In this document: piece by piece, positions 42,574 to 42,882 of the stretch
Numbering within the stretch: position 1 is the stretch's first letter
Layout of the letters: each line of letters starts with the position of its first letter
Assembly: GCA_028711215.1 (NCBI GenBank)
Contig: JAQTSO010000002.1
Coordinates: 46,696 to 110,695 of the forward strand
Direction of reading: 5' to 3'
Origin: Endomicrobiaceae bacterium
Lineage (GTDB): Bacteria > Elusimicrobiota > Endomicrobiia > Endomicrobiales > Endomicrobiaceae
DNA: 64,000 nt
Made by a program: the position numbers and the translations under genes
The notes under the pieces: model-generated
Databases searched by the model: none
What the model saw: the letters and a program-made list of their open reading frames with translations, nothing else
Told to the model about the DNA's origin: nothing

Positions 42574-42600
42574 TTGGCACTCATATTATTTGAGTGCTAG
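42574..42600 (-). promoter_or_regulatory. CIRCE operator (HrcA-binding site) upstream of clpB
   Basis: Minus strand CTAGCACTC-N9-GAGTGCCAA versus consensus TTAGCACTC-N9-GAGTGCTAA. Confidence 0.9.
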
Positions 42601-42650: not shown

Positions 42651-42679
42651 TTGATTTTTAAGATTTTGTAATATATAAT
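42651..42679 (+). promoter_or_regulatory. Sigma70 promoter of 32-aa peptide gene
   Basis: TTGATT (42651-42656) -17- TATAAT (42674-42679). Confidence 0.75.
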
Positions 42680-42722
42680 AATAAGGTGTAGACACATGTG
42701 ATATATTTTCGGAGAATATAAA

Positions 42723-42821
42723 ATGAAAAAAGATAAGAAAAAAGTTTGGTCAAAGCCAAAACTTACCAAGATTAAAGTGGAAATAGATTCTGTTATTTCT
42801 GCCAGTGATATGTATTATTAA
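42723..42821 (+). CDS. 32-aa peptide MKKDKKKVWSKPKLTKIKVEIDSVISASDMYY (not in supplied ORF track)
   Basis: Promoter 42651-42679, RBS ggag 42711-42714, ATG 42723, TAA 42819-42821, palindromic terminator downstream. Confidence 0.75.
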   Translation: MKKDKKKVWSKPKLTKIKVEIDSVISASDMYY

Positions 42822-42847
42822 TTATGAAATTCAGTTAAAAAATATTA

Positions 42848-42882
42848 AAATGTATCCACTTTAAAGTGGATACATTTATTTT
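42848..42882 (+). terminator. Rho-independent terminator (perfect palindrome)
   Basis: aaatgtatccacttt/aaagtggatacattt (42848-42877) followed by attttt. Confidence 0.85.

Follow-up and report, generated by a model that had tools for sequence, protein, structure and literature searches.

Discrete RREs of the lasso and PQQ systems bind leaders of the form [Y/W]xxPx[L/V/I/A/F/Y], and efficient capture of [Y/W]xxP leaders has been shown experimentally to depend on one Asn and one Asp, N33 and D70 in LppB (PMC13381572). The lasso precursor/B1 pairs (TbiA/TbiB1, TfuA/TfuB1 and paeninodin PbaA/PbaB1) combine a [Y/W]xxPx[L/V/I] leader with a discrete RRE of the PqqD fold, and the PQQ system (PqqA/PqqD/PqqE) combines a single conserved peptide with a stand-alone PqqD and radical-SAM/SPASM enzymes. 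A third comparison is offered by the linear polyphosphorylated peptides (LPP; LppA/LppB), whose precursors have a YxxP leader (PMC13381572). We analysed a window of 64,000 nucleotides, i.e. the whole stretch of DNA under study, from the genome of an Endomicrobiaceae bacterium, a gut-type member of Elusimicrobiota, and found that a 32-aa peptide gene in it resembles all three systems in its leader, the likeness to PQQ being a WxKPx, and, with the proteins encoded elsewhere in the same genomes, shares further parts of each. Unlike our system, the LPP pathway is a phosphorylation pathway of Bacillota, and the term radical SAM is absent from its description (PMC13381572).

The peptide gene, which had been overlooked by gene callers, has expression signals of its own, as listed in Table 1. 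The putative promoter has its -35 element at 42651-42656 and its -10 element at 42674-42679, with a spacer of 17 nt and a score of 10/12, and the same arrangement is seen ahead of the gene in three other genomes (G001, G011 and G020), though the upstream gene there is either clpB or pheT. In G011, G020 and G028 a hairpin of different sequence occupies the equivalent place 3' of the gene. Sequence and folding hence confirm as written what the first-pass annotation had described, an uncalled 32-aa frame with a promoter, a ggag ribosome-binding site and a palindromic terminator. Upstream of the gene in the window lies clpB on the opposite strand, behind a CIRCE-like element, and acpS and nnrD follow downstream. 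The element ahead of clpB is a near-perfect CIRCE (TTGGCACTC-N9-GAGTGCTAG, window 42574-42600), and together with a putative minus-strand promoter (TTGACA-N17-TATACT) it points to HrcA-type control of clpB.

Table 1. Positions in the window of the peptide gene, its signals and its proposed functional segments.
Feature	Position	Strand	Basis
Putative sigma-70-type promoter TTGATT-N17-TATAAT	42651..42679	+	sequence; arrangement recurs in G001, G011 and G020
Ribosome-binding site GGAG	42711..42714	+	sequence; 8 nt ahead of ATG
32-aa peptide gene MKKDKKKVWSKPKLTKIKVEIDSVISASDMYY, stop included	42723..42821	+	homologues in 7/77 family genomes; synonymous-biased change
Leader motif W-S-K-P-K-L (W9..L14), proposed PqqD/RRE-binding site	42747..42764	+	W, K and P unchanged across the 7 homologues
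Tail I-S-A-S-D-M-Y-Y (I25..Y32), proposed modified core	42795..42818	+	pattern in all homologues; core role predicted
Perfect 30-nt palindrome AAATGTATCCACTTTAAAGTGGATACATTT, predicted intrinsic terminator	42848..42877	+	folding (-16.8 kcal/mol, z = -6.2); hairpins at same place in relatives

Homologues with the frame kept were found by tblastn over 60 relatives and by a profile over all 77 Endomicrobiaceae genomes. The seven carriers are the genome of the window itself (G000) and one of the same genus g1 (G001, Candidatus Proruminimicrobium quisquiliarum), G011 (Ca. Praeruminimicrobium purgamenti) and G020 of genus g11, and G028, G034 and G024 of genus g9. The peptides of G000 and G001 are identical proteins, and across the last 24 codons of their genes all 8 differences are synonymous, with 0 replacements; between G000 and G011 the same codons show 10 synonymous and 2 replacement differences. 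The first-pass annotation had named missing homologues and an unconserved frame as arguments against the gene, and what we see is seven carriers and mostly synonymous change. By this pattern of substitution the peptide gene is real and conserved, and its frame is evidently under purifying selection. A degenerate DNA pattern run over 84,980 species recovered six of the seven carriers by name (as Endomicrobiaceae or Elusimicrobia) and one chance match, a 27-codon ORF in Eubacteriales (L023) that we rejected as a member of the family. No further true members were found across 341 Elusimicrobiota genomes, nor was the peptide found in phages, plasmids or viral contigs. Matches outside Endomicrobiaceae at E 0.005-0.7 lie inside larger ORFs, are unlinked or arose by chance, with the exception of the one in G054, which led us to the gene cassette described below.

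All the homologues have a W-x-K-P-K-[L/I] leader and an I-[S/T]-A-[S/T]-D-M-x-Y tail, and the invariant residues include W9, K11, P12, K13, K16, I17, K18, D22, I25, A27, D29, M30 and Y32. Within Endomicrobiaceae conservation is as strong in the tail as in the leader; the tail does vary once other families of Elusimicrobiota are counted in. Paralogues with a conserved leader and a variable tail, for which a search had been proposed, did not turn up in the same genome: matches to a K-[W/Y]-x-K-P pattern in the own and the sister genome are not above the reversed control, and there is no convincing short ORF among those of them that we viewed as loci.

A stand-alone PqqD protein of 86-90 aa is encoded in six of the seven carriers, based on a PF05402 search, and it was not found in the remaining one, G034, a MAG of 86% completeness. 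A profile built from the carrier PqqDs and run over the 77 genomes has no match at E ≤ 1e-9 beyond these six, which makes 6/7 carriers against 0/70 of the others (Fisher p 3e-8, a value that ignores relatedness). In G000 the gene shares the contig of the window and is found about 80 kb to the left of the peptide gene; in G001 the distance is about 78 kb. The best solved relatives of the profile are the lasso leader-binding TbiB1 (5v1u/5v1v, 1e-12), the RREs 9x90 and 9x8z, and TfuB1. N35 and D72 are invariant in the Endomicrobia PqqDs, are kept in the PqqD of G054 too, and align to N33 and D70 of LppB in our reading of the profile alignments. On the side of the peptide, W9xxP12x[L/I]14 fits the [Y/W]xxPx[L/V/I/A/F/Y] motif in all seven homologues, so that binding is predicted. 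The genome-wide search for RRE-domain partners that the first-pass annotation had called for did yield this PqqD with the right pocket residues, and its RiPP-leader-like motif W-x-x-P-x-L has held up; membership of the lasso family is not supported, as no B2-type transglutaminase was found in the carriers. In the carriers viewed, the PqqD gene stands ahead of two SurA/PpiC-type chaperone genes and pdxA (L089:8225-12699 and equivalents), and in g1 it is preceded by an OmpA-like gene.

The genomes that encode the peptide tend to be rich in radical-SAM genes. SPASM domains number 28, 27, 24, 14, 19, 4 and 7 in the carriers and 0-1 in nine non-carriers, several of which are of equal genome size. 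Homologues of the TPR-radical-SAM protein of G024 (E ≤ 1e-20) are found in 7/7 carriers (18 in G000, 18 in G001, 14 in G011, 7 in G020, 12 in G028, 2 in G024 and 1 in G034) and in 1/70 of the other family genomes, the sole match there being a weak one in G008. The Fisher p for this co-occurrence with the peptide is about 3e-9, again ignoring relatedness. Within genus g9 the family is present in 3/3 carriers and in 0/8 non-carriers. Many of the genes are arranged in long runs on one strand. G000 has 26 consecutive ORFs with CX3CX2C (G000:C38:2747-40539; L082, L083, L113) and G001 has 27 such ORFs plus one more without the motif (G001:C23; L084-L086), a queE-like gene outside the run being left out of both counts; the run of G011 has at least 20 radical-SAM genes and is cut by the contig end (G011:C2; L087, L088). 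These runs of 20-28 genes are flanked in the three genomes by a large, repetitive NosD-like ORF and a pair of lptFG-like genes, and many of their members are TPR-radical-SAM or TPR-radical-SAM-SPASM proteins, with a B12-binding domain confirmed for one. Related runs were observed in other Elusimicrobiota (G037:C4, G038:C8, G040:C18, G329:C45 and G333:C33), and some SPASM genes stand amid carbamoyltransferase/glycosyltransferase-like genes (L116). It is implausible that 20-28 radical-SAM genes serve one 32-aa substrate; the majority must have another role, and the run may serve other substrates.

The peptide gene stands alone and has moved between loci. Its upstream neighbour is clpB in g1, pheT in g11, an unrelated pair in G028 and valS in G024 (the names pheT and valS rest on protein starts, without a profile). 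On the downstream side five genomes have acpS-nnrD, G034 has the accA region and G024 has a TPR-radical-SAM gene. Since the neighbours vary and the gene has moved, the function of the peptide cannot be derived from them, and we ruled out a role read from clpB, acpS, nnrD, accA or valS, which are housekeeping genes and variable between the genomes. Among the carriers, the only precursor-adjacent radical-SAM gene is that of G024, where 42 nt separate the stop codon of the peptide from the start of a downstream TPR-radical-SAM-SPASM gene in the same orientation, and this gap contains no strong hairpin; the other carriers have co-occurrence only. Its orthologue in the genome of the window is at G000:C38:24375-25985. 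A copy 84% identical to the G024 gene is found in G034 on another contig than the peptide (G034:C56, L115:8170-9537), and it carries a frameshift near codon 39, which is either an assembly error or decay of the system. The first-pass annotation had expected any modification enzyme to act in trans, and the presence of PqqD and many radical-SAM/SPASM genes in the same genomes, with the one 42-nt link, would agree with this.

Physical links between such peptides and PqqD are also seen in other families of the phylum. In G040, of the same order and another family, a 32-aa peptide (MEKKKAKKKVYKKPVLKKYQLPKKIGATAIFI) is encoded between a GT2-PqqD fusion (a GT2 with a C-terminal PqqD domain, L205:10902-12089, minus strand) and a stand-alone PqqD; B12-radical-SAM genes come next. 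This fusion and the carbamoyltransferase/glycosyltransferase-like surroundings of some SPASM genes suggest a link to surface polysaccharides. Four other genomes of Elusimicrobiota share a conserved cassette of PqqD, a radical-SAM-SPASM enzyme, a basic YxKPx[I/V]..ACGKC[IS/IA]GNP peptide and an S24-S26-type peptidase (G041, G047, G050 and G054; coordinates L207:3956-5853, L206:4068-5960, L209:4214-6454 and L009:3-1838). The cassette peptide ('..KYxKPKI..ACGKCISGNP..') is 48-51 aa long with ALACGKC, and the one of G054 has no NCBIfam match. It differs from the Endomicrobiaceae system in its different, Cys-containing core and its clustered genes. What the Endomicrobiaceae, G040 and cassette peptides have in common is a basic stretch and [W/Y]xKPx[L/I/V], while the tails differ between the groups. 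The Endomicrobiaceae peptide scores about 10 bits at best against the linked peptides of the other families, with the likeness confined to the lysine-rich leader, and therefore we do not claim a common descent of the leaders; we claim the shared motif and the linked genes.

Our analysis suggests that the peptide is probably a RiPP-type precursor that is bound by PqqD, modified in trans by radical-SAM enzymes and encoded apart from this machinery. The short precursor gene would be expressed alone, and the leader would consist of the lysine-rich N-terminus with W9-S-K-P12-K-L14. The stand-alone PqqD encoded about 80 kb off would capture this leader as an RRE, a radical-SAM/SPASM enzyme would presumably modify the invariant C-terminal ISASDMYY, and the leader would then be removed. 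The best candidate for the enzyme is the TPR-radical-SAM family adjoining the peptide in G024. That the co-occurring peptide is a substrate is our inference, and several observations speak against the RiPP reading. PqqD and the radical-SAM runs lie away from the peptide in all carriers but G024, and the seven carriers represent only three genera, so that the co-occurrence is not fully independent of ancestry. G034, moreover, has no PqqD that we could find and a frameshifted radical-SAM copy, the likeness to the linked peptides of other families is weak by score, and the runs are too large for a single 32-aa substrate. We also speculate, as a tentative and rather doubtful extension, that a new cofactor or signal, encoded ribosomally, is made from this precursor, in which the invariant D-M-x-Y tail would be modified by one or more members of the 20-28-gene array with the TPR domains as docking parts for the peptide or the RRE. 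This would make it a dispersed RiPP system with one substrate and an exceptionally large enzyme set.

An alternative hypothesis, which we consider unlikely, could be that the peptide works unmodified as a small regulatory or structural component of the same lineage-specific radical-SAM/surface-polysaccharide system, for instance one that partners with or inhibits PqqD or the TPR domains, without being a substrate. TPR domains bind peptides, which counts in its favour, co-occurrence cannot tell a substrate from a partner, and a tail as conserved as the leader is what such a peptide would have. The match of the leader to the RRE ligand motif and the ligand-capturing residues kept in PqqD speak for a precursor instead, as does the finding that in other families the peptides with the same leader encoded next to PqqD and radical-SAM genes have other tails.

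Could the co-occurrence reflect no more than common descent among a few lineages with larger genomes, the peptide being an ordinary conserved small protein with no RiPP link? We regard this as quite improbable. The peptide is confined to three genera, some members of g9 are without everything, and lysine-rich small peptides are common, all of which would fit; against this stand the joint presence of peptide and TPR-radical-SAM genes in three g9 genomes and their joint absence in eight, the negatives of equal genome size without both, and the direct adjacency in G024. That the peptide is a lasso or PQQ (PqqA) precursor is the least credible idea, very improbable in spite of the [Y/W]xxPx[L] leader, the PqqD nearest to lasso B1 and a leader that aligns with PqqA W-x-x-P-x-x-x-x-[L/I]-[K/R], since there is no B2 transglutaminase match in the carriers, no PqqA profile match and only a 28% hhalign probability for PqqA, and the E-x-x-x-Y of PqqA is missing.

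The tests behind both family assignments were negative. The lasso B2 leader peptidase (PF13471) has no match above the cut-off in the seven carrier genomes, and no asparagine-synthetase-like C cyclase is present among the peptide-gene neighbours examined; with B2 missing from the carriers, the lasso family is ruled out. Unlike the lasso pairs, the peptide moreover has an invariant tail, is encoded apart from its RRE and is accompanied by radical-SAM enzymes. None of the seven peptide members matches a PqqA profile from Pfam or NCBIfam at E ≤ 10, and of the E-x-x-x-Y cross-link pair the Glu position holds a D with no Tyr four residues on, which rules out the PqqA family; unlike the PQQ genes, those described here do not form an operon. 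Judged from sequence comparison, the peptide remains one that would work like an RRE-dependent radical-SAM RiPP outside the lasso and PqqA families.

RiPP mining based on clustering would miss this peptide, which is surrounded by housekeeping genes and covered by no family model, and which in most genomes has no adjacent enzyme. In open-access full text we found neither RiPPs nor radical-SAM arrays described for Endomicrobia, subscription papers being mostly outside the search, and the open-access papers covered likewise contained no description of such TPR-fused arrays. The peptide and PqqD are a concrete candidate substrate/RRE pair for the 20-28 consecutive radical-SAM genes, many of them TPR-fused. 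With its single copy and invariant tail, the peptide would seem a better source of a cofactor-like or signal product than of a variable antibiotic, and the tail hints at a product of the housekeeping type. If the pair binds and the peptide is modified, it would be an entry point to this radical-SAM system in Elusimicrobiota.
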